Below are positions 12,244 through 35,817 of a stretch of DNA of 64,000 nt, piece after piece. Both the position numbers and the translations under genes were made by a program. The notes below the pieces were generated by a model that was given only the letters and a program-made list of their open reading frames with translations, ran no database searches and was not told where the DNA came from. Every line of letters begins with the position of its first letter. Position 1 is the first letter of the stretch. The DNA lies in the IMG/VR virus record IMGVR_UViG_3300012582_000005, positions 188,001 through 252,000 of that record; one strand, given 5' to 3'. This DNA is from a virus.

Positions 12244-13908
12244 ATGCCTTTAAGAGACGAAATTTCACCTGTACATGAAGAAAGAATAAAACATTTTAAG
12301 GTTTCACGTTTTCTTGATATGGAAGTTCCACCAAAAAATGATAAGATTGTAGAGGGTAAGTGGCAACTCACGGAAGAAGAAAAAATGCAAGCTATAAATA
12401 ATTATTATGGCTTAAAATTTAATGAATCAAAAGCTTTAATGGCAAAATTCAAACCATCTGAACAATTTTTAAATACACTTAGATTAGCATTCATCAATGC
12501 AGAAGAATATCAATTGAATATACAAAATCCTAGTTTATTGGATTTAACATATCTTTATGGTAAAAATAATTTTAAAACTATTGGTGGTGAAACAAAAGAA
12601 GCTACTAAAGTTTTAAAAGACGAGGAAGGAAAACCTGTTTTAGGTGAAGATGGTAAAATTACTCGTGTTGAAAAACCAATTGGTGAATTAGTATGGACTA
12701 ATAATAAAGGAAATATAAACGACTTCATCAACACATATAATATTGCATATCCAGAAGAAAACATATATAATCCATTTGCACATGCACCATTTTCTTCAAT
12801 TCCTTCAATGACAGGAACTTTTAATATTGATTTGTTTGCTAAAAATCATATGTATCTCTACATATCTGGTAGACCCATGGATATTATGAATCAATCTATG
12901 ACAGGATTTTTCAATTCATGTCAAACAATTTATCGTGAAGATTTTCGTCCAATACTAGCTAATGCTATGGATAAAAATACAAAAATTGCATATTTAATGT
13001 TTGATGTGCCTTGGGTTGATGTTAAGAAAAAGGAATACCCATTTACAGCATTTTCAAGAATGTTTGTTAGAGTTGCTGGTGGTCAAATATTCTTTGATAA
13101 TGTTTATCCTGATAGAGTACGAACGTTCTTACATAAAATAATAGAGAATAGAACGGGTATGAAAAATGAATATAAAGGAAATACTTATCATTATACTACA
13201 CCCGATGGATATGCAATCCACTCATATATGGATATTCTTAAACCTCAATGGAAAAGGGAAGTTTCACTCGAAGAATTACTTAAAGATTTACGATTAAAAA
13301 ATCTCGCAGAACATTTCAAAATTGATCCTATGTCTATTGATAAGATAGAGGATAAAGTTTATGAAACTGAAAAAGGTAAATATATTATTTATACCGATGA
13401 AGAAGTTTATAATGATACTGTAGAATCTATCAAAACTATGGTGTATAAACAAGATGTCTATTCTAAATATTTGAAAATTGATGATTTTTTTGCAAGTAAG
13501 GATAAAGATGCTGTTACCTTTCTAAAAGGATATGAGAGTGATAAAAATTTCGAATCTTTGGTATTATGGTCAGAAAAAAATAAAATTAAAAAACATGATT
13601 TATATAGACAATTAAAAGCATATTTAGTTCCTGAATTTTGGAATGAGCGATTAAATGAAGATAAAGTTAAATTAAAAATAAAAGCTCTTTCTACAGAAGA
13701 ACCTTTAGAAATAGGTGATAATTTCAAAGCATATAAACCCGCTATTGAAGAAAAGAAAACAGCACAACCACAATATAAACAAGCTTATGTTGAACCTGTT
13801 AAAGAAGTTAAGAAGAAAATAAAACCATTACTAATTGATGCAAAAGTATTTAGAATTCAAATTCTAAATGATAAAGGTGTTGTTATAGCAGCTTTGAAAA
13901 AGAAGTGA
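12244..13908 (+). CDS. Member A of a phage paralog family (SCQ-motif protein), function unknown
   Basis: 554 residues. Shares a plan with the proteins at 13953 and 30851: an LRDE start (MPLRDEISPVHEERIKHFK), a DMEVPPKNDKIVEGKWQL motif, and a central block MNQSMTGFFNSCQTIYRED, KIAYLMFDVPW, FSRMFVRV, GGQIFFDNVYP. Then TGMKNE and a YMDIL motif. The invariant Ser-Cys-Gln, Arg and Asp/Tyr positions could be an active site, but I cannot name a family. The C-terminus adds a Lys-rich segment. Adjacent tandem paralog 44 bases downstream suggests gene duplication. Cytoplasmic by sequence; no signal peptide. Confidence 0.7.
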   Translation: MPLRDEISPVHEERIKHFKVSRFLDMEVPPKNDKIVEGKWQLTEEEKMQAINNYYGLKFNESKALMAKFKPSEQFLNTLRLAFINAEEYQLNIQNPSLLDLTYLYGKNNFKTIGGETKEATKVLKDEEGKPVLGEDGKITRVEKPIGELVWTNNKGNINDFINTYNIAYPEENIYNPFAHAPFSSIPSMTGTFNIDLFAKNHMYLYISGRPMDIMNQSMTGFFNSCQTIYREDFRPILANAMDKNTKIAYLMFDVPWVDVKKKEYPFTAFSRMFVRVAGGQIFFDNVYPDRVRTFLHKIIENRTGMKNEYKGNTYHYTTPDGYAIHSYMDILKPQWKREVSLEELLKDLRLKNLAEHFKIDPMSIDKIEDKVYETEKGKYIIYTDEEVYNDTVESIKTMVYKQDVYSKYLKIDDFFASKDKDAVTFLKGYESDKNFESLVLWSEKNKIKKHDLYRQLKAYLVPEFWNERLNEDKVKLKIKALSTEEPLEIGDNFKAYKPAIEEKKTAQPQYKQAYVEPVKEVKKKIKPLLIDAKVFRIQILNDKGVVIAALKKK

Positions 13909-13952
13909 ATTTATTTAGTAAAAACATTTAAAAAATCAAAAATCAAAGAATA

Positions 13953-15581
13953 ATGGCACTAAGAGACGAAGTATCACAACATCAAATTGATAGAATCAAG
14001 CACTATAAAGCAGAACACCTTTTAGATTTTAATGTACCTAAAAAGACAGAATTAATCACGGAAGGTAAATGGACATTAACACCCGAAGATAAAGATGAGG
14101 CATTGAAAGTTTTCTTTGGTTTCGCATATGAAAATGCTGCTATTGAAATGTCTAAATTTGATGTGGATGAACATTTTATTAACATAATAAATGAAGCTTA
14201 TTTAAAAAGTAATGAACACAAATTGATTAATGTTAAGAAACCATCATTATTAGATATAAAATATTTCTATGAAAAAGATACATTTAGAATAATTAGTGTT
14301 GGTGAGACAAAAGATAATAAAATAATTCTAAAAAATGAAGCAGGAATACCATTAAGAAATGGTGATGCTACTATGAAAACTGAACATAAAGAATCAGGTA
14401 AAATAGTGTGGAGTTCTAATAAGGGAAACATAAATGATTTCATTACGGCATATAAAAGTGCGTTTAACAAAAACTTTTATAATCCATATGCAGGAAATGG
14501 TATTATACCAAGTCTTCCATCAAGATTAACAAAAGAACATTTTGATATTAATTTATTTAATAATTTTGATTTGCATCTATACATTACATGTAAACCAGAA
14601 GACATGTTAAATCAATCGATGTCTAAATTTTATCAATCATGTCAAACTCTTTATAGAGAAGAAAAAGGATTTAGTGATATAAAACCATTAATGGCAAATT
14701 TATTCGATAAGAATACTAAAATTTGCTATTTAATATTTGACACACCTTGGACGGATCATCACGGTAAGATGTATCCATTTACAGCATTTTCAAGAATGTT
14801 TATAAGATTACATAAAGGAAAGATTTTTTTTGATTGTGTGTATCCAAATAATTTGAAAAATTTTCTGCATAAAATGGCTGAAAAATATACAACAATGAAA
14901 AATGAGCCTACTGTTCATAGAGAAACTTATAATTATACTACATCTGATGCATATGCTCAACATTCATATATGGACATTTTAGCTCCTTCTTGGAAAAAAG
15001 AAGTTCTATCATCAGAACTCATTAAAGATACTAAATTAAAAACTTTATCAGAATATCTAAAAATAGAACCCACTGATATCGAAAATCATCAAAAAAATGT
15101 GTATCAAACTCAAAATTCAGTATATACAATTTTTACAGAAGAGGAAGATGCTAATAGATTAGCTAAAGATGAAAAAGAATATAATGAAAGAGTGAATAAA
15201 TTTAATAAACAAGTAAACGACGATACAATTAAAAATATAAAAGATATGGTTTATAAACAAGATATTTATAAGAATCATATTGATATGAATGAATTCGGAA
15301 CTAAGGAAAAAGATAAATTCTTAAAGGATTATAATGGTGATATGATTTTTGGTAGTATATCTAAATGGGCAGAAGAAAATAAAATATCTAAGCACAACAT
15401 TTATAGAGTATTTAAACCTTATTTAACAGAAGATTTTTGGAAAACCAAGCTTTCTGATAATATTGTTGATAAGAAGAAAGCTAAATACATAGAAGAAAAT
15501 CAAGATAAAATACCCAAAATCAACAATAAAAAAATGGGTGAAAAACTTGATATTGGTGATGGTTTAATAGCCTACAAATAA
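13953..15581 (+). CDS. Member B of the SCQ-motif paralog family, function unknown
   Basis: 542 residues. Starts MALRDEVSQHQIDRIKHYKA and shows the same landmarks as member A: NVPKKTELITEGKWTL, MLNQSMSKFYQSCQTLYREE, KICYLIFDTPW, FSRMFIRL, KGKIFFDCVYP, TTMKNE and SYMDIL. A tandem duplicate of the preceding gene that has diverged substantially but kept the motif block, so both copies are probably under selection. Function not recognised. Confidence 0.7.
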   Translation: MALRDEVSQHQIDRIKHYKAEHLLDFNVPKKTELITEGKWTLTPEDKDEALKVFFGFAYENAAIEMSKFDVDEHFINIINEAYLKSNEHKLINVKKPSLLDIKYFYEKDTFRIISVGETKDNKIILKNEAGIPLRNGDATMKTEHKESGKIVWSSNKGNINDFITAYKSAFNKNFYNPYAGNGIIPSLPSRLTKEHFDINLFNNFDLHLYITCKPEDMLNQSMSKFYQSCQTLYREEKGFSDIKPLMANLFDKNTKICYLIFDTPWTDHHGKMYPFTAFSRMFIRLHKGKIFFDCVYPNNLKNFLHKMAEKYTTMKNEPTVHRETYNYTTSDAYAQHSYMDILAPSWKKEVLSSELIKDTKLKTLSEYLKIEPTDIENHQKNVYQTQNSVYTIFTEEEDANRLAKDEKEYNERVNKFNKQVNDDTIKNIKDMVYKQDIYKNHIDMNEFGTKEKDKFLKDYNGDMIFGSISKWAEENKISKHNIYRVFKPYLTEDFWKTKLSDNIVDKKKAKYIEENQDKIPKINNKKMGEKLDIGDGLIAYK

Positions 15582-15671
15582 TTTTAGAAATATGATTAAA
15601 AATAATTATTTTTTGTAGAAACCAAACTTTTCTATTTTAATACATAATAATAAATAATTTAAAACATTAAA

Positions 15672-16106
15672 ATGGAAATATCAGCAGGACTACTTATAAT
15701 ATTTGGTAATAAGGTTTTATTGGCAAAACCAACTAAAGGCACTAAAGCTATGTGGGGAATTCCAAAAGGTAAAGTGGAAGAGGGTGAATTATTAATTGAT
15801 GCAGCTATTAGAGAAACTAAAGAAGAAATTGGTATTGATGTCCCAATAGATAAAATAATCAAAGATGCTTATACTATAATTTATAGAAATAAAAAAACTA
15901 ATAAGAATTACAAAAAGGTAATTTATTATGTTTGTGAAGTTGCAAATTTATCTGAATTGGGATTAGAAAGTGAAAAAATACCAAAAGAACAATTGCAACC
16001 AAGAGAAATCTCTAAAGCAAGATTTTTCACAGTAAACGAAGCGGAAGATAAAATTTTTTGGAGACAAAAAGAAATATTAAATTTCATCGTAAAGGAAACT
16101 GAATGA
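15672..16106 (+). CDS. NUDIX hydrolase
   Basis: 144 residues. A perfect Nudix box (G-x5-E-x7-RE-U-x-EE-x-G-U) is read as GKVEEGE, seven residues, then RETKEEIGI, at about residues 36-58. Nudix enzymes hydrolyse nucleoside diphosphates linked to another group, such as oxidised dNTPs, Ap4A or ADP-ribose. The GIPKGKVEEGE context resembles Ap4A/MutT-like members. It overlaps the next gene by four bases (ATGA), so the two are translationally coupled. Confidence 0.85.
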   Translation: MEISAGLLIIFGNKVLLAKPTKGTKAMWGIPKGKVEEGELLIDAAIRETKEEIGIDVPIDKIIKDAYTIIYRNKKTNKNYKKVIYYVCEVANLSELGLESEKIPKEQLQPREISKARFFTVNEAEDKIFWRQKEILNFIVKETE

Positions 16107-16366
16107 AAGGATTATTTACTATATTTTTACATGACAAAAATAATCAATATGATGAAATAATACGTTCTTATATCACTAGTATAAAATATTATAATGTAAG
16201 AACTATTATTGAACCAAATATGATTAAAATATATTGTAATGATTACAGAGCATCCCAACATTTGGTTTGTACTATTACAGATGAAAAAATATTCATAAAT
16301 AATAAATTTACAGGATTAAATGGAATTTTCAGACAAATGAAAATAGAAGAATTGAATGGTGAATAA
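16103..16366 (+). CDS. Unknown protein coupled to the NUDIX gene
   Basis: 87 residues, MKGLFTIFLHDKNNQYDEII. Overlaps the Nudix gene by four bases and the next HNH gene by eleven, so all three form one operon. No family recognised. Confidence 0.6.
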   Translation: MKGLFTIFLHDKNNQYDEIIRSYITSIKYYNVRTIIEPNMIKIYCNDYRASQHLVCTITDEKIFINNKFTGLNGIFRQMKIEELNGE

Positions 16367-16637
16367 AAATATTAACGTATGTGAATTGTGTGAAAGAGAG
16401 AGAAATTTATCATTCCATCATCTAATACCTAAAACTTTACATAATAATAAATGGTTCTTAAAAAATTTCAAAAAGTGTGATATGAGAACAAATGGTTTGA
16501 TGCTTTGTAAAGATTGTCATTCTAATATACATCGTTTTATAGACGAAAAAGAATTAGGAAAATATTATAATACTAAAGAACTTCTTTTATCAAATGAACT
16601 AATAAATAACTTTGTAGAGTGGATTAAAAAAAGATAA
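16356..16637 (+). CDS. Small HNH-type nuclease domain protein
   Basis: 93 residues. A CELCERE zinc pair, LSFHHLIP (the first His of HNH), an Asn in MRTNGLMLC and CKDCHSNIHR (second Cys pair and final His) give a complete HNH fold of the phage McrA-like type. It may be a small homing nuclease or a repair or packaging-associated HNH. It overlaps the preceding gene and converges with the terminase block. Confidence 0.75.
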   Translation: MVNKNINVCELCERERNLSFHHLIPKTLHNNKWFLKNFKKCDMRTNGLMLCKDCHSNIHRFIDEKELGKYYNTKELLLSNELINNFVEWIKKR

Positions 16638-16640
16638 GGA

Positions 16641-17273
16641 TTATTTATTTTCATCATCCTCAGCGTCTAATTTCTTTTTCTCCATCATTCTTCTTATAGT
16701 TTCATTCAAGCTTTTAGCATCCGTTATATTACCGTTATTTCCTGTACCATTACTACCGTCTGTTGAAACAGTAGGTTGAGTAGTAATACCCAAATCTTCT
16801 TTTAATTGTTTATAAAAAGTTTCTTGTAAATTTTGTGTTGATGTAGATTGTTTAACTATGTCTCTAATCTCTTTTAAACCTGTATAGAACGTCTCAAAGT
16901 TTCTATGTGAAGTATCACCCATATCCATCTGTTTTAATTGAATTATCAAAGCTCTCATAGCCATTTTCTTTAAAAATAACATGTCTGCTTGGTTGATTGC
17001 ATCGTGTTCTTTCTTCTTCTTAATATAAGGATGGTTTAATACATCTGGTGTAGTTCCTAAATAAAGATTCGCCATGTTTTCTATAACTTGGTTTCCTTCT
17101 TGTTTAGACTCCTTTATATCCTTATCGTAATCATATAATTCTATTTCAGGTAATTTCTGTGCTAAATTAGATAACTCATTTACAACCTGAGCTTCAGGTA
17201 CACTACTATTCAAAGCTTCTTGATAAAGACTTTCTAATTCGCTAATCTTATTTTTTCTATCTTGATTACTCAT
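16641..17273 (-). CDS. Possible small terminase subunit or terminase-linked protein
   Basis: 210 residues, mostly helical. N-terminal helices (KISELESLYQEALNSS), a middle region with NLYLGTTPDVLNHPYIKK, and a disordered Gly/Asn/Thr linker before a basic end. It follows directly after the large terminase on the same strand (15 bases). Position and helical character fit a gp16-like small terminase that recognises DNA and stimulates gp17, but I see no diagnostic motif. Confidence 0.45.
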   Translation of the reverse strand: MSNQDRKNKISELESLYQEALNSSVPEAQVVNELSNLAQKLPEIELYDYDKDIKESKQEGNQVIENMANLYLGTTPDVLNHPYIKKKKEHDAINQADMLFLKKMAMRALIIQLKQMDMGDTSHRNFETFYTGLKEIRDIVKQSTSTQNLQETFYKQLKEDLGITTQPTVSTDGSNGTGNNGNITDAKSLNETIRRMMEKKKLDAEDDENK

Positions 17274-17288
17274 AAAAGTATATATTTG

Positions 17289-19595
17289 TTATTTGTTACT
17301 CCATGGATTAGAGCCTGTTCCTAAATTAAAATCGTCATTATTCCAATTCGTCTTCCATGGATTATTTGATGTTCCTATATTATTAGAGCGTTGTTGCGCT
17401 TTAAATAATACTGAATAATCAGCACCATTTATATTAGGATTTTCTCCTATTTTCTTTTCCATAGCATTTTTAATACTTTCGCTTAAACCATTCATATAGT
17501 TTGACATTAATTCATGTAATAAAGTATTGTCAAATGTTGTTGCTGTTGCGACAATAGTCATTACAGAATCATCGTGTCCACCTGCATCAGCCTCAAACAC
17601 TATATTACCAGATCTAGTTTCTTTCTTAACGAAAGTGGTCATTTCTTTTAAAGTACCTTCCTCATGTATTATAATATCACCAGTTTTAATTCTCTTTTGA
17701 TAATTTCTAACAAAAATATTTTTATTTGTTCTAATTTTCAATCCAATATCTTTCTTAATTGCATCTTCTCTATGTTTATATCTAAAAAATATATGATTGC
17801 TAAATTCATTTCTACCATTCCATAATTCTCTCATATTTGAAATTAATTCACCACCAAATGCATTAACTTCTAATACAACTCCAATATTATTGGAATTAAA
17901 AACTTCAAAAGAGAGTAAATAAAGAATTTCAGCAATTTCACTCACACTCATTATATTACTTTTGAATATTCCAACTTGCTCTAATTTAAACATGTCATAT
18001 AAACATTCAACACTTTTAGGCCACTCATCCATAGGTTTATTCATTATTCTAAAAATATTAATTACAGAAAAATCTTGTCCTAAACCTTCAGATAAATCAA
18101 CAGCCAATACCATATGATAATTACGTACTTGACTCAAATCAAAAATATCTGGCATATCTTTTATCCATGTCAAATCTTCATATTTTAAAAAAGTTCTTCT
18201 GTCTATTTTATCTATTTGTTGATAAACAAATGGAACTTTATCATTTGTTAATTTATCTAATGTCTGAGAGTCAAAAAGTACTTTATTACCATTTGCAAAT
18301 TGAAGATCAAATTCTTGATTAAAATTATCCTCACCACCAATATCTTTTATAGCATCTTCTTTCCAAGATGAAATATCGGCAAAATCTTTTATTCTATATT
18401 TATTATCATCAACTTCATAAATTAAACTTCTAAAATAATTAGAAAGAATATCGTCAGTTTCTTTACCCTTCATTTCTTCTTTTATATATTCTGGTAAGAA
18501 TTCTTTTTTATTTTGTATGTGTATTTCATACTTCATATCTTGTTTAGAATATATCAATTCCGTTTTAAATCCCATATCAGAAATCCATTTATGGAATATA
18601 GTATTATCAATTTTAAATTTTTCACACAAGAATGTATCTAAACGAATATATGTAACATATCTACCAGGTACTTGCCACCAATACACTCTTAATGCATTAT
18701 AATTATTTTTTTCTTTGTCACCCACAGGTTTTTCGGCAGAAGTTAAAATTTTATAAAATAGATTATAACCATTCGGTGTTGATGTAATAATAATCTTTGA
18801 ATTTTTAATTGCTGCAATAGTTGGAAATACAGATCTGTAATAATCCTCTATTATATTTGCTTGTATATGTGCCATCTCGTCAAGAAATATTAGGTCACAA
18901 CTAAAACCGATCGCTGCTGATTTTGTAGCGGCTGCTGTTCTAATTCTACAACCAGTATCAAAAGTTATTTGTGATTGAGTCCAATTTGATACACCTGGTT
19001 TTATAAACCACGGTAATAAATAATAAATAGCTTTAATTTTGTCAACAATTTCAACAACAGTATCAAGTTTATTAGCAACAATCATAATTGTCTTATCGTT
19101 ATTAAAAATAATATAATGAAGAATTGTAATTGCTGCTGAAACAGTTTTTCCAGATTGTCTAGAAGACATAAGGATACTGAATCTATTATTATCATAAAGA
19201 TTTAAAATATCTTTCTGATAATCTCTTAATTTCATTTGACCAATTGATCCATCTTCTCTTTTAATTTTACAATATTTTTCCGAAAAGTATAGTAACCCTG
19301 ACATTTCTGGATTTTTATTACTATCAGTATGTAATGTTCCGCTAAGTACTAATAATATACCATCAGTTGTATAGGTATTAATATACTCGACATTATTAAT
19401 ACCCATCATACATTTCATGTACTCTTCAATTTCTACATCAGTACGCTCAAAAATAATATTCTCTTTTTTTACAAGCTGTAAATTATTAAGCCAATATTTC
19501 TCATGTCTGGGTGTTTTAAATCCTAAGTCTGCTTTATTTTTTATCTCATCTATTGTTTTAGTATTAAATACAAATTTATTTTGATTATCTGCCAT
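17289..19595 (-). CDS. 17: Terminase large subunit, T4 gp17-like
   Basis: 768 residues against about 610 in T4. ATPase: Walker A MSSRQSGKT near 143-151 and Walker B DLIFLDEMAH near 230. RNase H-fold nuclease: VLAVDLSEGLGQDFSVI near 495 (first Asp) and GGHDDSVM near 670. It forms the packaging motor at the portal, cuts concatemers and pumps DNA with ATP. The extra length is an insertion between the ATPase and nuclease parts (about residues 290-440) plus an Asn/Trp-rich tail with two NPWK/NPWS repeats. The gene starts one base inside the preceding endonuclease stop. Confidence 0.93.
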   Translation of the reverse strand: MADNQNKFVFNTKTIDEIKNKADLGFKTPRHEKYWLNNLQLVKKENIIFERTDVEIEEYMKCMMGINNVEYINTYTTDGILLVLSGTLHTDSNKNPEMSGLLYFSEKYCKIKREDGSIGQMKLRDYQKDILNLYDNNRFSILMSSRQSGKTVSAAITILHYIIFNNDKTIMIVANKLDTVVEIVDKIKAIYYLLPWFIKPGVSNWTQSQITFDTGCRIRTAAATKSAAIGFSCDLIFLDEMAHIQANIIEDYYRSVFPTIAAIKNSKIIITSTPNGYNLFYKILTSAEKPVGDKEKNNYNALRVYWWQVPGRYVTYIRLDTFLCEKFKIDNTIFHKWISDMGFKTELIYSKQDMKYEIHIQNKKEFLPEYIKEEMKGKETDDILSNYFRSLIYEVDDNKYRIKDFADISSWKEDAIKDIGGEDNFNQEFDLQFANGNKVLFDSQTLDKLTNDKVPFVYQQIDKIDRRTFLKYEDLTWIKDMPDIFDLSQVRNYHMVLAVDLSEGLGQDFSVINIFRIMNKPMDEWPKSVECLYDMFKLEQVGIFKSNIMSVSEIAEILYLLSFEVFNSNNIGVVLEVNAFGGELISNMRELWNGRNEFSNHIFFRYKHREDAIKKDIGLKIRTNKNIFVRNYQKRIKTGDIIIHEEGTLKEMTTFVKKETRSGNIVFEADAGGHDDSVMTIVATATTFDNTLLHELMSNYMNGLSESIKNAMEKKIGENPNINGADYSVLFKAQQRSNNIGTSNNPWKTNWNNDDFNLGTGSNPWSNK

Positions 19596-20065
19596 TAAAT
19601 TAAATTATTTTTTATAATGGTTTCTACATTAGCCATATCTTTATATGGAATATTAATTAATTTTATATTATTTTTCTTACAAAATTCTACTTTTATAGCA
19701 TCTCTTATTTTAATTATCTTTAAATTATCTTCTCCACCAAATATTTTAATGGGTTTATAATGTTGAAGTCCATTAAATTCAATACATATATTATAATCAG
19801 GTAAATAAAAATCAAACATTAACATTTTTTTATGCACACATTTTTCAAATTTCATTTGTTTTATAAAATTTATTTTTTCCATTATTAATATCTTTTCTAC
19901 TAATAATTCACCTTTTGATAATAAGCAATTTGGACAATTATTCAAAACCTTATCAGTACTTTTAATATATTCAGTTTTATTGTAGCCGTACAAACCATTA
20001 TGGATTATTAAAGATCTTTCTATAAAATTTTTAGTATCATTTTTCTTCATCTTATTATATATCAA
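19595..20065 (-). CDS. Small Vsr-like (PD-(D/E)XK) endonuclease
   Basis: 156 residues. The nuclease core reads GELLVEKILIMEKINFI, MLMFDFYLPDYNICIEFNG, then QHYKPIK and IKLINIPYKD: the E...D...ExN arrangement of Vsr/DUF559-like nucleases. A CPNCLLSKGE zinc-like pair precedes it. Its stop shares one base with the terminase ATG, so it is inserted directly upstream of and coupled to gp17. Probably a small mobile endonuclease. Confidence 0.7.
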   Translation of the reverse strand: MIYNKMKKNDTKNFIERSLIIHNGLYGYNKTEYIKSTDKVLNNCPNCLLSKGELLVEKILIMEKINFIKQMKFEKCVHKKMLMFDFYLPDYNICIEFNGLQHYKPIKIFGGEDNLKIIKIRDAIKVEFCKKNNIKLINIPYKDMANVETIIKNNLI

Positions 20066-20069
20066 AAAA

Positions 20070-24846: not shown

Positions 24847-26688
24847 ATGACTACAAAAGAATTTTTAGATCAACCTGATAACAATGGTAAACTATCAAAA
24901 GAAAAATGGATTTTAACCAATAATAAAGATGCTTATGATGAAATCATAAATTATACAAAAATCTATGATTTGTATGAAATTCCATTTAAAGAGCGAGTTT
25001 ATCTGTATATACACGATTTAAAAACTGTAGGAGTTTGTAATAATTCTAAATGCAACAATAAAACAAATTTCAAAAATAAAACTTTAGGATATTTAAGGTA
25101 TTGTTCTAATAAATGTCAAAGTTCTTCTGATGAAATAATGAATAAGAGGAAAAATACCAATATTGAAAAATATGGTGTTGAATATGCGATTTTTAATGAA
25201 GATAAGATGATGATGTTTAAATCTAAATTAGAAAATAGAACACAGGATGAACAAACTGAAATAAATGAAAAAAGAAAATCTACAAATTTAATTAATTTTG
25301 GATATGATAATCCTAGTAAAAATCCAGATTTTGTAGAAAAAAGAATAAATTCTTTTAAATTAAATATTGATAGTTGGAAAGAATCTTATAAAAATACTAG
25401 TAATGAAAAGTACGGTGTTGAACATCCCTGGTCAAACAAAAATATTTACGAAAAATGTAAGATAACCAGTAAAAAATTATATGGTGTTGAATATCCCATG
25501 TTGAATGATGGGATAAAGAAAAAATCTATTATTAATAGAGCTAAAAGTGTTGAAAATTTTAGAATAAACTTTAGAAACACTTTTAATTTAAAATTAATAG
25601 AAAAAATGAAAACTGTCTATAATATAGACATATCAAATATAAATAGAGGTATTTATAATAGTAATAATTATAGTATTTTTTTCGACATTACTAATAATAG
25701 TAGATGTGAACATAAATCTTTCAGAATTTCATTAGGATTATTTTTAAATAGATTTAAAGATATGCATGCATTATGTACAGTGTGTAATAATCCTAAAAGT
25801 TCTTCAGATTTTGAATTAAAAGTATTGGAATATGTCAAATCAATTTACAATGGTGAAATTATATCAAGTAATAGGAGTATTATAAAACCTAAAGAATTGG
25901 ACATTTATATACCTGAATTAAATATTGCCATTGAATGTAATGGTATGTATTACCACAATGAGGATTTTAAAAGTACGCAATATCATATAAATAAATTTAA
26001 ACATTGTAGAGAACTTGGTATTAAATTAATACAAATATGGCAAGATGAGTGGAATAATAAAAAAGATATTATAATGTCTAGATTACATAATTTATTATGT
26101 AAAAGTAATGAAAAAATTTGGGCAAGAAAAACAATAATTAGAGAACTTAATAATAATCAATATAGAAAATTTCTAGAGGAAAATCATATTCAAGGATATG
26201 CGCATAGTAAATATAAATATGGATTATTTTATAATGATGAACTTGTGTCAATTATGTCATTTTGTGGTTTAAGAAAATTTATGAATCATGAAAGAGTGGA
26301 GGGTAATTTTGAATTAATAAGATTTTGTAATAAAAAATACACAACCGTAGTTGGTGGAGCATCCAAGTTATTTAAACATTTTTTAAATGCGGTAGAAGTT
26401 AAGCGTATAATATCATACTCTGATAATAATTGGGGAGTTGGTTTTTATGCAAATTTAGGTTTTGATGACAATGGTGTTACAAAACCTGGTTATTATTATA
26501 TAGATGCATATATGAAAAGGCATCATAGATTTAATTTTTTTAAAGGTAAATTAATTAAAATGGGATTTGATCCGAAATTAACAGAAGAGCAAATTATGTC
26601 TGATATTAGTATGTATAGGTATTGGAATTCTGGAAATATTAAATGGGTGTGGGAAAGAGATGAAATTATTATACAACCGAGTGCATAA
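24847..26688 (+). CDS. Homing endonuclease-like protein with Vsr/PD-(D/E)XK-type domain (copy 2)
   Basis: 613 residues, same architecture as 1185-2861. N-terminal cysteines (VCNNSKCNNK, YCSNKCQSS) are followed by four KYGVE-type repeats (EKYGVEYAIFNED, NFGYDNPSKN, KYGVEHPWSNKN, LYGVEYPMLND). The nuclease core is SDFELKVLEYVK, ELDIYIPELNIAIECNG and KLIQIWQDEW. The acetyltransferase-like C-terminus has GLFYNDELVSIMSFCG and VVGGASKLFKHF. It is inserted between sheath and tube genes after the sheath terminator. Probably an active mobile element since the frame is intact. Confidence 0.77.
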   Translation: MTTKEFLDQPDNNGKLSKEKWILTNNKDAYDEIINYTKIYDLYEIPFKERVYLYIHDLKTVGVCNNSKCNNKTNFKNKTLGYLRYCSNKCQSSSDEIMNKRKNTNIEKYGVEYAIFNEDKMMMFKSKLENRTQDEQTEINEKRKSTNLINFGYDNPSKNPDFVEKRINSFKLNIDSWKESYKNTSNEKYGVEHPWSNKNIYEKCKITSKKLYGVEYPMLNDGIKKKSIINRAKSVENFRINFRNTFNLKLIEKMKTVYNIDISNINRGIYNSNNYSIFFDITNNSRCEHKSFRISLGLFLNRFKDMHALCTVCNNPKSSSDFELKVLEYVKSIYNGEIISSNRSIIKPKELDIYIPELNIAIECNGMYYHNEDFKSTQYHINKFKHCRELGIKLIQIWQDEWNNKKDIIMSRLHNLLCKSNEKIWARKTIIRELNNNQYRKFLEENHIQGYAHSKYKYGLFYNDELVSIMSFCGLRKFMNHERVEGNFELIRFCNKKYTTVVGGASKLFKHFLNAVEVKRIISYSDNNWGVGFYANLGFDDNGVTKPGYYYIDAYMKRHHRFNFFKGKLIKMGFDPKLTEEQIMSDISMYRYWNSGNIKWVWERDEIIIQPSA

Positions 26689-28142: not shown

Positions 28143-28152
28143 TTAAAATAAT

Positions 28153-28179
28153 AAAAACCTCTTTTTAAGAGGTTTTTTT
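28153..28179. terminator. Intrinsic terminator after tail tube
   Basis: AACCTCTT/AAGAGGTT stem with an A-run before and T7 after; works in either direction. Confidence 0.87.
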
Positions 28180-28226
28180 ATGGAGACCACATAAACCAAA
28201 TATATAACTAAAAATCTCTTTTACCG

Positions 28227-29234
28227 ATGTCAAGTAAAAAAGAAGACTCATATAAAGATTATTTGGATAATTTATTATCTCAACCAAATAATAATGCTAC
28301 ACCGCCACCATCATTACCTAATACACAACCTAAAGAGTCCGTAGTATCTCCTTTTATTCCTAAAGCAGAAAAACCAAGGGTTATACCAAAACCAAGCGTG
28401 ATAGCTAATAATGCGAAATCTATAATGTTTGAAGATGTTATATTATCAGATTTGCCTATGGGTGATTTTTATTATACTGGTACAAGAATTCAATTTAGAG
28501 ATTTAAAAGTAAAAGAAATCGAACATTTTGCCACATTGGATGAATCAAGCATTTTAGATTTTAAAGATAAAATAAATGACATTTTAGAAAATTGCATTTT
28601 ATTTAATCATCCAGATGGAACACCAGGTGATTACACAAATTTATTCAATGGTGATAGATTGTGGATGATTTACATGATTAGAGAAAAAACATTTCCAAAA
28701 GGTAAAGTTCTTACTGTAAATGTAGAATATAAAGAAGATGAAAATATTAAAAATGTTGATATTGAATTAGTTAGAGCTAATATGGATATTTATAGAAATG
28801 AGGATATAATGGGATGGTTTTCTAAAGAAAAGAAAGCATTTGTCTTTGAAACTGAATTAAAAGAGGATTCTTACGTTATAGCACCTCCTACAATAGGTAT
28901 TCAAAGGTGTTTTGATGTTTATGCAAAATCTAAAATTGAGAATGGTGAAAGTATAAATAAAGAATTCTTTAGAATATGTCCATATTTACAACCACACGTT
29001 TCTTATATGTCTTATGAAGAGCTTGATGAATTTTATCATTGGTTTGAGAATCATATAACACCCGATGAGTTCTCCTTTCTTCACGACTTAATAACAAATC
29101 ATCTAAAAATAGGAATTAGAGGACTAAAAAAAAATGTGGGTAAGCGAACAATTACCACCAATAAAATATACCCCATCAGACTCAAAAATCTTTTCATGCT
29201 TCCAAATGCCTTTGATGTACTTATTAAGAAATAA
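28227..29234 (+). CDS. Tail/baseplate-associated protein, possibly gp26-like or a tail assembly chaperone
   Basis: 335 residues. A Pro-rich disordered N-terminus (to about 65) is followed by a domain starting MFEDVILSDLPMGDFYYTGT and FRDLKVKEIEHFATLDE. That pattern resembles the T4 baseplate-protein family that includes gp26, though I cannot verify it. After GLKK near residue 303 the reading crosses a run of nine A residues and becomes basic and unlike the rest; an overlapping frame (29134) carries the more natural continuation. The gene follows the tail tube, where many phages encode frameshifted tail assembly chaperones. Confidence 0.6.
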   Translation: MSSKKEDSYKDYLDNLLSQPNNNATPPPSLPNTQPKESVVSPFIPKAEKPRVIPKPSVIANNAKSIMFEDVILSDLPMGDFYYTGTRIQFRDLKVKEIEHFATLDESSILDFKDKINDILENCILFNHPDGTPGDYTNLFNGDRLWMIYMIREKTFPKGKVLTVNVEYKEDENIKNVDIELVRANMDIYRNEDIMGWFSKEKKAFVFETELKEDSYVIAPPTIGIQRCFDVYAKSKIENGESINKEFFRICPYLQPHVSYMSYEELDEFYHWFENHITPDEFSFLHDLITNHLKIGIRGLKKNVGKRTITTNKIYPIRLKNLFMLPNAFDVLIKK

Positions 29235-29391
29235 GAAGGTGTTATACCAATATCCTTATAATTTATCAGATGATACAATAGATAATTGGCAAATGTGGAA
29301 ATTTCAAACTTTTATTGATATGATAAATGATGAAGGTAAGGATGCTCTAAATACAATAAATCCAACATCTACAGAAAATAATTTAAAATAA
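29134..29391 (+). CDS. Overlapping frame, candidate frameshift extension of the 28227 gene
   Basis: 85 residues from ATG 29134 (MWVSEQLPPIKYTPSDSK). It overlaps the previous gene by about 100 bases in the +1 (or -2) frame and begins exactly at the end of the A9 run. In this frame a TAA lies at the front of the A-run, so it is reached either by its own ATG or by a shift on the A-run that joins GLKK to MWVSEQLP. The composition (PPIKYTPSDSK, NWQMWKFQTFID) looks more like real protein than the tail of the first frame. Confidence 0.6.
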   Translation: MWVSEQLPPIKYTPSDSKIFSCFQMPLMYLLRNKKVLYQYPYNLSDDTIDNWQMWKFQTFIDMINDEGKDALNTINPTSTENNLK

Positions 29392-29468
29392 TGTGATTTT
29401 TAAGCAATTATTTTCAAAAATTAATCACATAAAGCAAAACTCTACTGTCATTTTTATATATAACCTTA

Positions 29469-29987
29469 GTGAAAAGATCAGTTAAAAATAAATACGATGA
29501 ACTTGAGGCTATTGTTTGGCGTTACGCTAAACGCTACAAAGTCAGTATATTAAATGACCGTTTCACAACATCCGTTGGAAGAGCTTGGGTAGATAGCAAA
29601 GAGATTAAAATACCCGTTATTGATTCAATTGAAGATTTTTTAGTTTGTTTACATGAAATTGGACATATTGTAACTGGTCAAAAAATAGATGATAGTTCAC
29701 CTGATTACATGTTTGAATATTTAGCCGATAAGTGGGCTATAGATACAGCTAAAAAGCATGGAATATACAACTTCAAATATGAAATGAGGGCGAAATGGTA
29801 TGTTCTACAATTTATTGCAGAATATCATAATAAAAATAATGACTATATTATACCAAATAAGGTATTAAAATTTGTAGGTGAAGATATTTATTCTTGGAAG
29901 GGATATAACGTATCTGTTTTTTTCACAACTAGTGAAGTAGTAATTACTAAAAAATTAAAATCCTTTTCTCCCAAAATTTTCAAATAA
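29469..29987 (+). CDS. Zinc metalloprotease-like protein, HEIGH motif (ImmA/IrrE type)
   Basis: 172 residues from a GTG start; no earlier ATG exists in frame. The zinc motif CLHEIGHIVTGQ is followed by a downstream Glu in EYLADKWAID, the HExxH...E arrangement of ImmA/IrrE-like proteases. Such enzymes cleave repressors or act in phage-host control; the target here is unknown. The C-terminus overlaps the convergent HAD gene by 33 bases. Confidence 0.75.
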   Translation: MKRSVKNKYDELEAIVWRYAKRYKVSILNDRFTTSVGRAWVDSKEIKIPVIDSIEDFLVCLHEIGHIVTGQKIDDSSPDYMFEYLADKWAIDTAKKHGIYNFKYEMRAKWYVLQFIAEYHNKNNDYIIPNKVLKFVGEDIYSWKGYNVSVFFTTSEVVITKKLKSFSPKIFK

Positions 29988-30818
29988 ATCAACAGTTGAA
30001 TCATAAGGATAAATTAAAGAATTAGTATTAATTATAAATGGATTCAAGTCATTATTTGTAACTAAATTTGTTTCCCATTCTAATTTAGAATATTTAAGTC
30101 TTTGCATTATTTGAGATTTTAATGATTTATCTGTATTATTTAAACATATCTCAAGCAATGTTTGTAAATTTTTAACTGCCTCAATATTTTTATCATCACT
30201 ATCATAAAATTTAACTTTATCGTATTCACTTTGTTTTAAATCTATAAAACGATTGCTTTTTATTTTATATCCAATAAGATGTTCTAATATTATTTTAGAT
30301 TTTCTCGATGCTATCAAATCTGAATTTGTTTGAGATTCTATATCATTAATAAAGTATTCTTTTATAACAGGTAATCTAAGCTTTGTGTATATTTCATCTT
30401 TAATTTTATTAATGAATTTATCATGATTTTCTTTAGAACCTCTTGCTGTTAAAAGAACTACTGGTATTCCACTATCTTTTAAATTCTGTAAATTGTAAAG
30501 TAAGAATTCTAATCCTTTTGATTGTTTTTCTAAAATTTCTTTATCTGACCATTCTCTATAACTAATACCTATTCTTTTAGATGTAATACCATTAACTTTC
30601 CTTTTTATTGATTTGAGTAAATCAGGACTTAACCAAAAAGTTTTACCATTATATTCTATCATAATGTCAAATTTTTTCCACACTGATGTTAAAAGTGGTA
30701 TATCAGAACTACTAATTCTCATTATTACCTCACCTGGATTTTCTTTATCAATAATAGATAATTTTGATTCGGGTATAATTAAAGTATAATCAATATCAAA
30801 GAAAATTATTTCGTCCAT
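29955..30818 (-). CDS. HAD-superfamily hydrolase (copy 1)
   Basis: 287 residues. Motif I IIFFDIDYTLI (D8, D10) at the N-terminus, motif II VVLLTARGS, and motif IV KFYDSDDKN near residue 200. These are the catalytic aspartates and metal ligands of HAD phosphatases. The cap and C-terminal part are not recognisable. Many T4-like phages encode a HAD polynucleotide 3'-phosphatase; the substrate here is unknown. It is divergent from the paralog C gene at 30851. Confidence 0.72.
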   Translation of the reverse strand: MDEIIFFDIDYTLIIPESKLSIIDKENPGEVIMRISSSDIPLLTSVWKKFDIMIEYNGKTFWLSPDLLKSIKRKVNGITSKRIGISYREWSDKEILEKQSKGLEFLLYNLQNLKDSGIPVVLLTARGSKENHDKFINKIKDEIYTKLRLPVIKEYFINDIESQTNSDLIASRKSKIILEHLIGYKIKSNRFIDLKQSEYDKVKFYDSDDKNIEAVKNLQTLLEICLNNTDKSLKSQIMQRLKYSKLEWETNLVTNNDLNPFIINTNSLIYPYDSTVDLFENFGRKGF

Positions 30819-30850
30819 ATTATGTATATATTATTTAAATATATAGTATT

Positions 30851-32419
30851 ATGAGTATTTTAAAATTCTATCAATTTTTATTAGAAAGAGAAGCTTTAAG
30901 AGATGAATTACCTAAACATCATATAAATGCTTTAGAATACATTTATGGTGAAGATTCTAAAAAATTCTTAGATATGGATGTACCTTCTAAAACAGAAAAT
31001 ATTAAAGAAGGAAAATGGGTGTTATCTAAAGAAGAAAAGGATGCTATCATTGGATTAATATTCGATGACATCGATATAAAAAATGTTTTTAGAGTATTTA
31101 AATCATGTTTATCGCAAATGAATACACAATTCATAAATGCTTTTAATGCATCTAAAACAGATAATAGTATATCATTTGTTTTACCTAAGAATGCAATAGA
31201 TGTAGCTGTAATGCTGGATAAATTTTATAGTAATAACTTTTATACAATAAATGTTAAAGAAACAAAATCATCTGAAAAAATTTTAAGAGATAGTAATGGT
31301 GTTCCAATTACTAAAGATGGTGAAATACAAAAAGTTTCTAAAAAACCTAATGAAATAGTTTTTAATAAAAACAAATCCTCGTTCAATACATTCATTGATG
31401 TGTATGATGAAATTTTCACATCTGCGAATATTCCAAATCCTTTAGATGATTATACTGTTAATAATTTTTATTCAGTATCTAAAGAAATTTTAGATATGGA
31501 TATGTTTAAAAATTTCGATATGGAATTATACATAACATCTAAACCATCTGATATTTTAAATATGTCTATTTCTCGTTTCTATGATTCTTGTCAAAATTTG
31601 TATAATGGTGAATACAATAGCCGATTATTATCAAATGTATTTGATAATAATATGAAAGTTGCATATTTAATTTTCAATACACCATTTACAGACAAAGAAG
31701 GTAATATAAATCCTATAACATCAGTATCAAGATGTATAATTAGAAATATTAAAGGTAAAATATTCTTTGATCAGATATATCCATATTTGGATAATAATTG
31801 GACTAAATTACAAAAAATGTTTTACGGAATTATAACTAAATATACTGGTATGAAATCTAATTATAGCGGAATTGATTATTATTTTAATATTCCTGATGAA
31901 TTGGATTACCCATATTTAGATAGCTTAAATAGTGTAAAAAATCCAAATAATGAAGAGGTTAAAGCCTTATTATCACTATACAAATTTGATATTGAAGATA
32001 TTGAAGAATGTGGCGATGGTGTTTATCGTGCAAATACAAAAAATGATAGACTATTTTATATCACTAAAAATACAGACAATTTTGTTGAAAAATGTATTAA
32101 TGGTGATTTTTATTTTAAAAAACCATTATCTAAAAAAATAATAAAATCTATCGAATCAAATATTTTAAATTACTTTGATTTCAAAAAATTTGGAAAAGAT
32201 GATGGGATAAAAGGTAATGAGACTGTAATTAAACGTAAGGTTAATGAAATAATAAAAGATTATTACGAAAATAGTGTTATAGATTTTATTAGAGAAAATC
32301 AAGATTGCTTAATAGTTAAAAAAATGATAGGTGATAACCACCCATACTTCTTGACATTTTATACTAAAGATAGAAAATATCATATTGTAGGTGATTATAA
32401 AATATATGAATTAGTATAA
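30851..32419 (+). CDS. Member C of the SCQ-motif paralog family, with capsid-targeting-like N-terminus
   Basis: 522 residues. It has an extra N-terminal peptide, MSILKFYQFLLER, before the family start EALRDELPKHHINALEYIYG. That peptide ends in LLE, matching the gp21-type [LIV]-x-E cleavage rule. The family landmarks follow: MDVPSKTENIKEGKWVLS, ILNMSISRFYDSCQNLYNG, KVAYLIFNTPF, VSRCIIRN, KGKIFFDQIYP and TGMKSN. The family function is unknown. The pre-peptide suggests this copy may be packaged in the head. Confidence 0.7.
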   Translation: MSILKFYQFLLEREALRDELPKHHINALEYIYGEDSKKFLDMDVPSKTENIKEGKWVLSKEEKDAIIGLIFDDIDIKNVFRVFKSCLSQMNTQFINAFNASKTDNSISFVLPKNAIDVAVMLDKFYSNNFYTINVKETKSSEKILRDSNGVPITKDGEIQKVSKKPNEIVFNKNKSSFNTFIDVYDEIFTSANIPNPLDDYTVNNFYSVSKEILDMDMFKNFDMELYITSKPSDILNMSISRFYDSCQNLYNGEYNSRLLSNVFDNNMKVAYLIFNTPFTDKEGNINPITSVSRCIIRNIKGKIFFDQIYPYLDNNWTKLQKMFYGIITKYTGMKSNYSGIDYYFNIPDELDYPYLDSLNSVKNPNNEEVKALLSLYKFDIEDIEECGDGVYRANTKNDRLFYITKNTDNFVEKCINGDFYFKKPLSKKIIKSIESNILNYFDFKKFGKDDGIKGNETVIKRKVNEIIKDYYENSVIDFIRENQDCLIVKKMIGDNHPYFLTFYTKDRKYHIVGDYKIYELV

Positions 32420-32420
32420 T

Positions 32421-33236
32421 ATGTTGAAAAATTTTGCTGAATATATTTTAGAAAGATGGGGTAATCAAAAACATTATATCCAAGATATGGATGATTACAA
32501 TGTTGCTATGTCTAAAACAATTGATGATAAAATATTTTTCTTGAATTATGTTACTCCTGATGTCATTGTTGATTTTGGTTGTGCTGATGGTTCTACATTA
32601 AAAGAAATTCAAAATGTAAATCCTAACATTAAACTTATTGGTTATGATTTAAATGCAAATATGTTAGATAAAGCTAAACAAAAAGTTCCAAATGGATATT
32701 TTACTACTAAATGGGAAGATATATTATCTATCATTAGTCAATATAATTCACCTCTATTACTTCTATCTAGTGTTATACACGAAGTATACTCATATAGTAA
32801 TAGTGCTGATATTTCTTTATTTTGGAATAGAGTATTTAAATCTAATTTTAAATATATTGCTATCAGAGATATGATACCATCATCAAAACTTGAAAGAATG
32901 CCCGTTTCTGATAGTGACTATGAAAAAATAAAATCTAATATTTCTAACAAAGATATTATTACAACATTTGAAAATTATTGGGGGCCAATAAATTCCAATA
33001 GAAGAAATTTCATTCACTTTTTATTAAAGTATCGCTATTATGACAATTGGGATAGAGAACTTATAGAAAATTATGTTCCTATAACAAGAGAAACATTAGA
33101 AAGAAAAATTCCTGCTAGTTGGACTAAATTATATTATGAATCATTTACTCTACCATTTTTAAAAAGACAAGTAGAGAATGATTTTAATATTGAGTTAAAG
33201 GATGAAACACACATAAAATTATTACTTAGTCGATAA
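32421..33236 (+). CDS. Class I SAM-dependent methyltransferase with capsid-targeting-like N-terminus
   Basis: 271 residues. Motif I VDFGCADGSTLKEI, then the acidic end of strand 2 in LIGYDLNANMLDKAKQ; LLLLSSVIHEVYSY follows the fourth strand. The fold is that of small-molecule, RNA or protein methyltransferases; no DNA-methylase catalytic motif is seen. The N-terminus MLKNFAEYILERWG ends in ILE and resembles T4 internal-protein targeting peptides. Separated by a single base from the preceding gene's stop codon. Confidence 0.78.
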   Translation: MLKNFAEYILERWGNQKHYIQDMDDYNVAMSKTIDDKIFFLNYVTPDVIVDFGCADGSTLKEIQNVNPNIKLIGYDLNANMLDKAKQKVPNGYFTTKWEDILSIISQYNSPLLLLSSVIHEVYSYSNSADISLFWNRVFKSNFKYIAIRDMIPSSKLERMPVSDSDYEKIKSNISNKDIITTFENYWGPINSNRRNFIHFLLKYRYYDNWDRELIENYVPITRETLERKIPASWTKLYYESFTLPFLKRQVENDFNIELKDETHIKLLLSR

Positions 33237-33957
33237 TTAATTTTTCGTGTTTCTTTTCGGATGTGTCAAATATAGCGAGTTCTATATGTGGATACTTAAC
33301 TTTAAGTTCTTTAAAGTATTCAGTTATTTTAATAACATTGTGTTTATCATCGTCTGAAAATCCGATACTAATAGTAGAATCAAATTGAGTGCTATGTTTT
33401 AAATAAAAATCGAAACTTCTTTCTACTGCAATTCTTTTATAACTTTCTGTATTGTCTTCTATATCACTTGATATAGTTTTTAAAAACTCAGGCGAATAAA
33501 CTCCTACATAAATGCAAGTATCTAAATATTCTTCTATGGTATTTATGTTTATTTGTTTAAGATTTTCTAACATATCTTCAATATTTGCTTTTGATAGACA
33601 ATGCGAAATTATGTATTCAATACCACTTCTAATTGTTTTAGAATCATGTCCCCTAGCTGAAATTATAGATAATATATTACCACTTATTAGAGATTTAATA
33701 AGTGAATCGAAACTTGGGCCAAAAGCCTTCGCTTTAATAGCCTTCTTAACGTCATTTAAGAACTCAGGACCATTACCATGACAATTTCTATATCCATTTT
33801 CTGTGGGGCGATATAAAGGACTTTTTCTTGCTATTCTATAATGTGAAGATGTGATAGCAATCTCCTTCCATACACCATTATCATTAAATTCAACAAAGAT
33901 TTCGGTATCCATATGTAACAAATTATCATCCCAGTCATATATTAGATAGTTTTTCAT
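33226..33957 (-). CDS. HAD-superfamily-like protein (copy 2)
   Basis: 243 residues. YLIYDWDDNLLHM gives the two motif I aspartates (D8, D10), ILSIISARGHDS fits motif II and SIGFSDDDKHN fits motif IV. The same motif spacing as the HAD at 29955 but little other similarity, so they are distant relatives. Convergent overlap of 11 bases with the methyltransferase. Substrate unknown. Confidence 0.68.
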   Translation of the reverse strand: MKNYLIYDWDDNLLHMDTEIFVEFNDNGVWKEIAITSSHYRIARKSPLYRPTENGYRNCHGNGPEFLNDVKKAIKAKAFGPSFDSLIKSLISGNILSIISARGHDSKTIRSGIEYIISHCLSKANIEDMLENLKQININTIEEYLDTCIYVGVYSPEFLKTISSDIEDNTESYKRIAVERSFDFYLKHSTQFDSTISIGFSDDDKHNVIKITEYFKELKVKYPHIELAIFDTSEKKHEKLIID

Positions 33958-33995
33958 GGTTTTTAAATATGTTTGAAACTATTATATGGGAAATA

Positions 33996-34026
33996 TTGTA
34001 TTTGTTTCATTTTTTCATTATATTTG
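33996..34026 (+). promoter_or_regulatory. Bacteroidetes-type promoter
   Basis: TTG (33996) and TATATTTG (34019-34026), spaced 20 bases, fit the Bacteroidetes primary-sigma form TTG-N19-21-TAnnTTTG. The gene at 34062 starts 35 bases downstream of the -7 element. Confidence 0.6.
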
Positions 34027-34061
34027 TGGTATATACATAAAAACATGTATATTTATGAAAT

Positions 34062-34415
34062 ATGATAGAAAACTTATTAAGAATTTCTGGATATACTCAA
34101 AAATTATTGAACGAAGAGGATGCGGATATACGATTAATTCCAATTTCAGATTTAGAATACTATAAAACTGTCTGTGGGGAAGAGGATAAACTTCATTTTA
34201 CTAACAATGCTATTGATTTCTTGAAAAATCTTGACATATTAGAAGTAGCTATTATTTATTGTGATGGTCAAAATTATAGGTATGTAATGGAAATTCTTCT
34301 TAAAATTGATAGAGAAAATGCTAAAAAATTCTGTACTATAGTTAATGATAATGGTGGGGCATTAATAGTTAACAAAACTGATGGTGATATGATACTATTA
34401 TCAAGTTATGAATAA
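34062..34415 (+). CDS. Unknown acidic protein (117 residues)
   Basis: MIENLLRISGYTQKLLNEED is the start; the LNE near residue 18 again fits the gp21-type cleavage rule, less convincingly than other cases because of its distance from the start. Acidic, mixed alpha/beta, no recognised family. It has its own host-type promoter, so it may be expressed early. Confidence 0.6.
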   Translation: MIENLLRISGYTQKLLNEEDADIRLIPISDLEYYKTVCGEEDKLHFTNNAIDFLKNLDILEVAIIYCDGQNYRYVMEILLKIDRENAKKFCTIVNDNGGALIVNKTDGDMILLSSYE

Positions 34416-34416
34416 A

Positions 34417-35817
34417 TTAATTTATAAGTTTTACTTCTTCTATATTAAATGTGAATTTTAACATTAAATTACCAGTAATCGAATTATTAACAATTCGTTG
34501 TACATATACAATATGTTCATGTTTTATATCTTTAATAAAATTATAATACACAATATTTACTATTTCACCTTGCATTTTTTTACCATTATCAAAAAATTCT
34601 AATTTTAAATAGACACTATCGTCGAAAGTTGAATTATAAAATGATACATGAATATTATTAACTCTATTATCAATTTTTTTAATATACTCTGTTAGTTTAG
34701 GTACATCAACATACATCGTTTTACCAATACTATTAAATATTTGATAAATATCATCCTCTTCTTCTTCTTCTTCTTCATCTTCATGAAAAGATTCAAAAGT
34801 TTTTAGATATTTAAACTTAGATATATTTTCATTTAAATAATCATCTTCATCATCCCATGGATCACTATCATATTCGTCCATAGGTGTTGTGTAAAATCCA
34901 TCGGTACTTTCCCATATTTCTGTAATGCTATCATAAGATCCGTCGTTTGTTAATATACCTTCGTGTGGAACATAGTATTTGAGTGTATCCATGAAAGGTC
35001 TATCTTCACCAGTTTCTAAATCACTAATTTCAACTTTAAATTTTCTAACTTTACCTATTCTACCATTAGTGATTCCTGTTCCTGCTCCTGAATCTTGTTG
35101 TTCTTTCCACCACCAATTATTTTCTTTAGCATAATTCTTAAACAATTCTTCCATATATGTTTTATAACAATATATTCTATCCATAAAAATGAATGTATTT
35201 GTAACATCTCCATCCAATGGTTCACATTTAGTCCATACTAAAGCTCTTCCTACAAGTTTTTGAGTAGTATTATCTAAAAGTATTAATAGTTTGATTGATG
35301 GTGTTCTTTCATACACTTTAAAGTATGTTTGACATGAATCATATCTCATACAGCTATTCCATAATGTATGTGATTCTTCGAAATTTCCATGATAGTTATC
35401 TTGTAGATACCATTTAGGAATTTCATTACCACTAACTAATTTAAAAGTGTATTGATTATTATTTTTTCTCTGTATTGCTAAATACTTATTTACGAATAAA
35501 TCAATTTGATAATCTGTATATTTGATATTTTCTTTTTCTAATACTGCTCTAACGAATCTTCCAATTTTAACTTTTTGTCTGCCTTTACTCCATTTTTCAT
35601 CATCAGATAAACCTTTTTCTCTATTAGATGGTAAATATGATACCATACCATCATCTGCTATGTCAATAAAACTATAAGCCATATCCGATTTACCTTGCAA
35701 TTCTATTAAATGATTTGCAATAACATCATTCATATCTTTAAGAAGCGAAAGGAGGTTATCACTTAAAATAATTTCTTTTTCTTGTAACAATCCATATAAA
35801 AATGATAAAATATTCAT
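34417..35817 (-). CDS. Distant member D of the SCQ-motif family with capsid-targeting-like N-terminus
   Basis: 466 residues. The N-terminus MNILSFLYGLLQEKE resembles the other pre-peptides (LQE). The middle retains the family block in diverged form: LWNSCMRYDSCQTYFKVYE, IKLLILLDNTTQKLVGRALVW, TFIFMDRIYCY. Then a DEDDYLNEN-type acidic linker (about residues 310-355, with a run of six or more Glu) and a separate beta-rich C-terminal domain. The order of SCQ, beta-strand, Arg and Asp-x-x-Tyr positions matches members A-C, so I treat it as a remote paralog. Confidence 0.65.
   Translation of the reverse strand: MNILSFLYGLLQEKEIILSDNLLSLLKDMNDVIANHLIELQGKSDMAYSFIDIADDGMVSYLPSNREKGLSDDEKWSKGRQKVKIGRFVRAVLEKENIKYTDYQIDLFVNKYLAIQRKNNNQYTFKLVSGNEIPKWYLQDNYHGNFEESHTLWNSCMRYDSCQTYFKVYERTPSIKLLILLDNTTQKLVGRALVWTKCEPLDGDVTNTFIFMDRIYCYKTYMEELFKNYAKENNWWWKEQQDSGAGTGITNGRIGKVRKFKVEISDLETGEDRPFMDTLKYYVPHEGILTNDGSYDSITEIWESTDGFYTTPMDEYDSDPWDDEDDYLNENISKFKYLKTFESFHEDEEEEEEEDDIYQIFNSIGKTMYVDVPKLTEYIKKIDNRVNNIHVSFYNSTFDDSVYLKLEFFDNGKKMQGEIVNIVYYNFIKDIKHEHIVYVQRIVNNSITGNLMLKFTFNIEEVKLIN

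Follow-up and report, generated by a model that had tools for sequence, protein, structure and literature searches.

Genes at the locus

The window analysed here is a stretch of 64,000 nucleotides (bases 188001-252000 of a 288,572-base virus record in IMG/VR), and its genes find matches of 100% identity in LR756504.1, an uncultured phage of 636,363 bases that is named among megaphages in PMC9723777. The same window carries genes for the portal, the head maturation protease, the major head protein, the terminase and the tail sheath. A preliminary description of this DNA had placed four open reading frames of one family at 12244, 13953, 30851 and 34417, and all four are present there. We refer to the first three as family A and to 34417 as family B; they and their features are listed below.

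12244..13908, + strand: family A copy of 554 aa, without pre-peptide; SCQ at 12916-12924
13953..15581, + strand: family A copy of 542 aa, without pre-peptide; SCQ at 14637-14645; modelled with AlphaFold2
30851..32419, + strand: family A copy of 522 aa, with T4-like pre-peptide; SCQ at 31586-31594
30851..30892, + strand: predicted capsid-targeting sequence (CTS), the pre-peptide of 30851, from the [LIV]xE/A-[KR][LI][RK]D junction (slash, cut) found across its family relatives
34417..35817, - strand: family B copy of 466 aa, with predicted pre-peptide, probable GNAT-like core and variable C-terminal part
35779..35817, - strand: predicted pre-peptide of 34417; other B copies of the same phage start at the equivalent of KEIILS
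34969..35451, - strand: probable GNAT-like core of 34417 (aa 123-283), from AlphaFold2 (pLDDT mostly 82-98) and Foldseek; element order b1-a1-SC-a2-b2-b3-b4-a3-b5-PFMD
35347..35355, - strand: invariant SCM of 34417 (aa 155-157); S and C in 158/158
35329..35337, - strand: non-conserved SCQ of 34417 (aa 161-163); Cys in 59/158, Gln in 71/158
2797..5091, + strand: head maturation protease (PHROG 207, E 2e-32), candidate cutter of the pre-peptides

Other genes of the window were noted in passing. Two similar proteins of about 612 aa (1185-3023 and 24847-26688) lie beside the structural genes and have by eye the look of homing-type endonucleases, and a single ORF at 41956-43758 appears, also by eye, to join an endonuclease-like N-terminal part to an IMP dehydrogenase/GMP reductase-like part. 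Nine clustered tRNA genes are found at 54043-57837 around genes that look by eye like aminoacyl-tRNA synthetases; several of these tRNAs are unusual in ARAGORN, one having a two-base anticodon call.

Two homologous families and the register of their motifs

The three family A genes are related to one another, as had been described (31-48% identity), and have in common SCQ, an L-x-F-(D/N)-x-P strand, an Arg and F-D-x-x-Y-P. By plain alignment, 34417 has little likeness to them. Comparison of a profile of the A core with a profile of the B core gave an hhalign score of 33.4, against a maximum of 23.3 over 150 column shuffles of A and 13.6 for the reversed profile. Because this score exceeds all shuffled and reversed controls, families A and B are, as judged from their profiles, homologous and form one superfamily, which bears out the earlier view of 34417 as a distant relative. 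The profile alignment places N-V-F-D-x-N...L-I-F...S-R-x-x-I-R...F-D-x-x-Y-P of A against I-Y-x-x-N-P...L-I-L...G-R-A-x-x-W...M-D-R-I-Y of B, both cores end in P-Y-x-D, and the order of motifs in A (S-C-Q, F..P, R, F-D-x-x-Y-P, P-Y-x-D) is the same as in B.

The preliminary description had given all four members an SCQ motif, and this stands for the three A genes but not for 34417. That protein contains SCM at aa 155-157 and, six residues further, SCQ at aa 161-163; it was this second motif that the preliminary description, and a four-sequence alignment like it, had used. It is poorly kept among the B proteins (C162 in 59/158 and Q163 in 71/158), and because its Cys is kept in so few of them it is out of register with the SCQ of A. 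Since Ser155-Cys156 is invariant, two B relatives have SCQ exactly at the position of SCM, and in the models the SCM of B and the SCQ of A each directly precede helix 2 (the second SCQ of 34417 being inside that helix), the SCQ of A is the equivalent of the SCM of B.

We compared 158 B proteins, which are pairwise often merely about 30% identical. Ser155, Cys156 and Arg191 (34417 numbering throughout) are unvarying in 158/158, and Trp195, Asp213, Tyr216, Pro274 and Asp277 are invariant in every member aligned at those positions; together with Y137 and Y169 these make up the core positions of B, and N172, R214, K238 and Y275 are near-invariant. The equivalents in A are S229, C230, R281/R285, D294, Y297, Y339 and D341. 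The S-C pair is also present in every full A protein, so that the description of a multi-copy family with an invariant Cys was correct. No His is invariant among the conserved positions of A or B.

Predicted structure

The AlphaFold2 model of 34417, built from an alignment of 75 sequences, has pLDDT mostly >90 across aa 10-240. Its elements are b123-128, a132-137, the S-C pair at 155-156, a160-171, b175-182, b188-200, b209-217, a221-232 and b236-238, in the order of the core of a GNAT, or GCN5-related N-acetyltransferase (b1-a1-a2-b2-b3-b4-a3-b5). The top Foldseek matches in the PDB are mainly GNATs (SpNatD, 4ua3; Hpa2, 1qsm; AAC(3), 1bo4; AAC(6'); the toxin AtaT), with probability up to 0.99 and a best E-value of 7e-3, none reaching 1e-3, and with low TM-scores, from 0.37 to 0.50 by target length for most best matches. 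Among viral models the matches were uncultured marine phage proteins and then a giant-virus N-myristoyltransferase.

For family A, 13953 was modelled from 24 sequences (pLDDT 76). The order b207-a215-SCQ-a240-b255-b277-b290-a299-b325 is the same as that of the B core; Foldseek of this model against the PDB gave only noise and no GNAT, and the fold assignment of A therefore rests on its homology with B. The structure prediction that the preliminary description had suggested as a check speaks in its favour through the confident, GNAT-like core of 34417 and the shared element order, and not through the empty PDB search with A. On the strength of the models, we consider it quite probable that the core of the superfamily has a GNAT-like fold.

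The resemblance to GNATs lies in the order of strands and helices and does not extend to the cofactor site. The motif A of GNATs, the [QR]-x-x-G-x-[GA] pyrophosphate/CoA loop after strand 4, is found in 0/149 B and 0/29 A proteins, no GNAT-clan profile matched A or B in Pfam, NCBIfam or PHROG scans, and A and B differ from GNATs also by their invariant S-C, D-x-x-Y and P-Y-x-D and their CTS-like N-terminal peptides. That these are ordinary CoA-dependent acyltransferases in which the CoA site has drifted would agree with the N-acetyltransferases among the Foldseek neighbours and with the giant-virus N-myristoyltransferase, but is improbable given that the canonical loop is absent from all 178 proteins checked and that no GNAT model of Pfam is matched.

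A hydrolase or protease with a Cys nucleophile, the kind of enzyme implied by the preliminary description, is highly improbable: an invariant Ser-Cys ahead of the N-terminus of a helix would suit it, but a classical Cys-His nucleophile or protease is unlikely because A and B have no invariant His, and the best structural neighbours are GNATs, with no Cys protease among the matches listed. The idea of a Cys enzyme holds only in a general form.

Two further candidates were rejected. PcfJ (PF14284) is similar by eye, with an order HCV..Y..(strand)..(strand)..Q-R-G-x-x-N, and came up in the viral fold library with an E-value of 0.075, but a profile-profile comparison (hhalign) of 12 collected PcfJ proteins with the family gave a probability of 0.2-0.4%, and PF14284 has no match in the megaphages. 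An ADP-ribosyltransferase was found neither in the Pfam matches nor among the Foldseek matches listed.

No model of Pfam, PHROG or NCBIfam covers A or B, and searches of PDB sequences with them gave nothing credible; the sole solid match in sequence databases is a side match, to a DnaJ-type zinc region in one tail. The tails vary from copy to copy, those of LR756504.1 including DnaJ-type CxxCxGxG zinc repeats and SH3-like segments. By eye, an SH3-like segment stands ahead of the core in some copies of LR756501.1, and most other A proteins have an LRR-like tail.

N-terminal peptides

In T4, CTS peptides of 10-19 residues send the IP proteins to the prohead, where gp21 cuts after Glu (PMC9026906). 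The protein 30851 starts with MSILKFYQFLLEREA followed by LRDE, its predicted pre-peptide being MSILKFYQFLLERE with a cut before ALRDE, and 34417 starts with MNILSFLYGLLQ, with MNILSFLYGLLQE as predicted pre-peptide and a cut before KEIILS. Nearly all A relatives have a start like MKWIKNRNLFLEA followed by KLRD. By contrast, 12244 (M-P-LRDE) and 13953 (M-A-LRDE) start at the predicted mature, cleaved end of their peptide-bearing relatives. In-frame stops lie just upstream of their ATGs, at 12229-12231 (5 codons) and 13929-13931 (8 codons) respectively, so these two genes truly lack a pre-peptide, and the distinction drawn earlier between them and the other two is confirmed. Both forms occur in family B as well (MNILSFLYGLLQE before KEIILS versus MEKRIILS).

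A strict T4-like CTS pattern ([LIV]xE/A type) occurs N-terminally in 102/155 B and 21/30 A proteins, whereas a control stretch within these proteins has it in 3 B and 3 A. From these sequences, the peptide-bearing copies are likely to be packaged in the head, and the pre-peptide would be cleaved by the phage's own head maturation protease. Such CTS-like peptides fit the earlier suggestion that members of the family occur in the virion. The predicted peptides resemble those of T4 IPI-IPIII (PMC9026906), which are short, N-terminal and cut after Glu; the A and B proteins differ in being large and multidomain (330-770 aa), and their packaging is a prediction.

It is unlikely that the peptide is another sorting signal, for example to a phage nucleus-like compartment, rather than a CTS. 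Jumbo phages are able to sort proteins, and many unrelated proteins of LR756504.1 start with similar MKYIK..F..FxxEA peptides, as such a signal might. However, the junction agrees with cleavage of the T4 type, after Glu, the phage has a gene for a head maturation protease, and the peptide-less paralogues start exactly at the predicted mature end.

Further unrelated proteins with MK(Y/N)IK..F...(N)E(A/S)-type starts were seen at 46523-48771 and 59060-60801 of the window; the occurrence of these starts on unrelated proteins suggests that this phage has a considerable number of candidates for head packaging. Within 34417 itself, at aa about 333-350, an internal FKYLKTFESFHEDEEEE resembles a second CTS in the middle of the protein, as if a small CTS-bearing protein had been fused onto its tail.

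Packaging is not universal in the superfamily, since the members from cultured phages (phi38:1 gp037, the Calle phages and TSP4) have no obvious CTS. In the proteomics literature on phi38:1, gp037 is absent from the methylated proteins reported, and we found no statement on a virion location.

Size and distribution of the superfamily

The family is much larger than the four members first described, since LR756504.1 alone has six full A copies (the three described above plus a tandem array of three at 323.7-328.6 kb), a stand-alone protein with only the C-terminal domain of A, and 14 B copies. The stand-alone protein has 398 aa and a CTS-like start and is encoded at about 171.8 kb (703-1899 of its locus); because it carries that part alone, the C-terminal part of A is a separate module. 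Elsewhere, family A is represented by one gene each in LR745206.1 and LR756502.1 and by more genes at 25 IMG/VR loci; a single copy is the usual number in related phages. Family B counts about 15-18 copies in the 735-kb LR756501.1 and 8 in each of LR745206.1 and LR756502.1, and a tandem arrangement of B copies is frequent in the megaphages.

A single pattern search found at least 154 B relatives in IMG/VR; the IMG/VR relatives were recovered with closer alignments as queries, and not with single sequences or over-diverse alignments. Among cultured phages, B is present in Cellulophaga phi38:1 and phi40:1, in Calle_1-3 and in Thermus phage TSP4 (profile score of 102 bits). Using tblastn and profile searches, we could assign the hypothetical proteins phi38:1 gp037 / Calle2_50 and TSP4 QAY18141 to family B; they differ from the megaphage members in being single copies with no evident pre-peptide, and in QAY18141 a G replaces the first Asp of D-R-x-Y.

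Family B was not found in 395 of 396 Bacteroidota genomes, and the lone match, on a small contig of a Chitinophagaceae MAG, has phage copies as its nearest neighbours in the tree. This distribution marks B as a family of phages. In a phylogeny of 71 cores, the 14 copies of LR756504.1 group together as a single clade (support 100/98) whose branches are long, and LR745206.1 and LR756502.1 share several orthologous pairs. These orthologous pairs and the single clade imply old, separately kept paralogues together with a lineage-specific expansion in LR756504.1.

Proposed role

We propose that all four genes belong to one phage superfamily with a common GNAT-like alpha/beta core, which carries an invariant S-C turn ahead of helix 2, an Arg (plus a Trp in B) on strand 3, D-x-x-Y on strand 4 and P-Y-x-D after strand 5. 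Most likely, the invariant residues make up the active site of an enzyme that transfers a group and would not bind acetyl-CoA in the canonical manner; the choice of target may fall to the variable ends (zinc-knuckle, SH3-like, LRR-like and other). Peptide-bearing copies would enter the prohead, be cut by the head protease and be injected with the DNA, so as to act immediately on host (or phage) components, and peptide-less copies would be made in the cell, later, for the same kind of job.

The logic is that of T4, in which Alt, a packaged ADP-ribosyltransferase, is injected and modifies the host RNA polymerase (PMC9026906), Alt being one of three ADP-ribosyltransferases in total (PMC10468400). 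In T4, Alt is packaged, with a peptide that is cleaved off, and ModA/ModB are made in the cell (PMC9026906, PMC10468400); by analogy with Alt and its CTS, we infer that a single effector family exists here in both packaged and cell-made versions. A and B differ from these T4 enzymes in their sequence and fold, which match no ADP-ribosyltransferase, and in their far greater copy number. As a whole, the reading of the superfamily as GNAT-like, probably catalytic effectors in head-packaged and cytoplasmic forms, as T4 Alt versus ModA/ModB, is put forward tentatively. Of its parts, catalysis by the core is somewhat favoured, a role in host takeover is evenly balanced, and group transfer as the chemistry is plausible at slightly less than even odds.

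These may instead be non-catalytic packaged proteins, with a core that acts as a scaffold to bind host factors, DNA or the prohead core, and with invariant residues that keep the fold or a ligand in place. The lack of a CoA loop and of an invariant His agrees with this, T4 IPI is a precedent as a packaged inhibitor of a restriction enzyme (PMC9026906), and large multi-copy expansions would make sense for decoys, or for inhibitors with many different targets. We nevertheless regard a scaffold as somewhat unlikely, because at least eight invariant polar or aromatic positions across strongly diverged paralogues look more like an active site. A more specific and rather speculative form of the proposal is that they are injected GNAT-like transferases that have lost the CoA site in favour of a different donor (for example aminoacyl-tRNA or another activated group), present in 14-18 copies in the largest phages, the tail of each copy directing it to mark a different host component upon infection.

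Head-delivered effector enzymes as such are already known and have a T4 precedent; what is new here is the domain, its lack of a CoA loop and the number of copies that the largest phages carry. The largest known phages devote 8-18 genes each to family B, which no domain library names, and the single members in the cultured phi38:1, the Calle phages and TSP4 make the family open to testing. If the reading as packaged and unpackaged forms is true, megaphages would own an injected toolkit comparable to T4 Alt and built on a catalytic domain of a new type.
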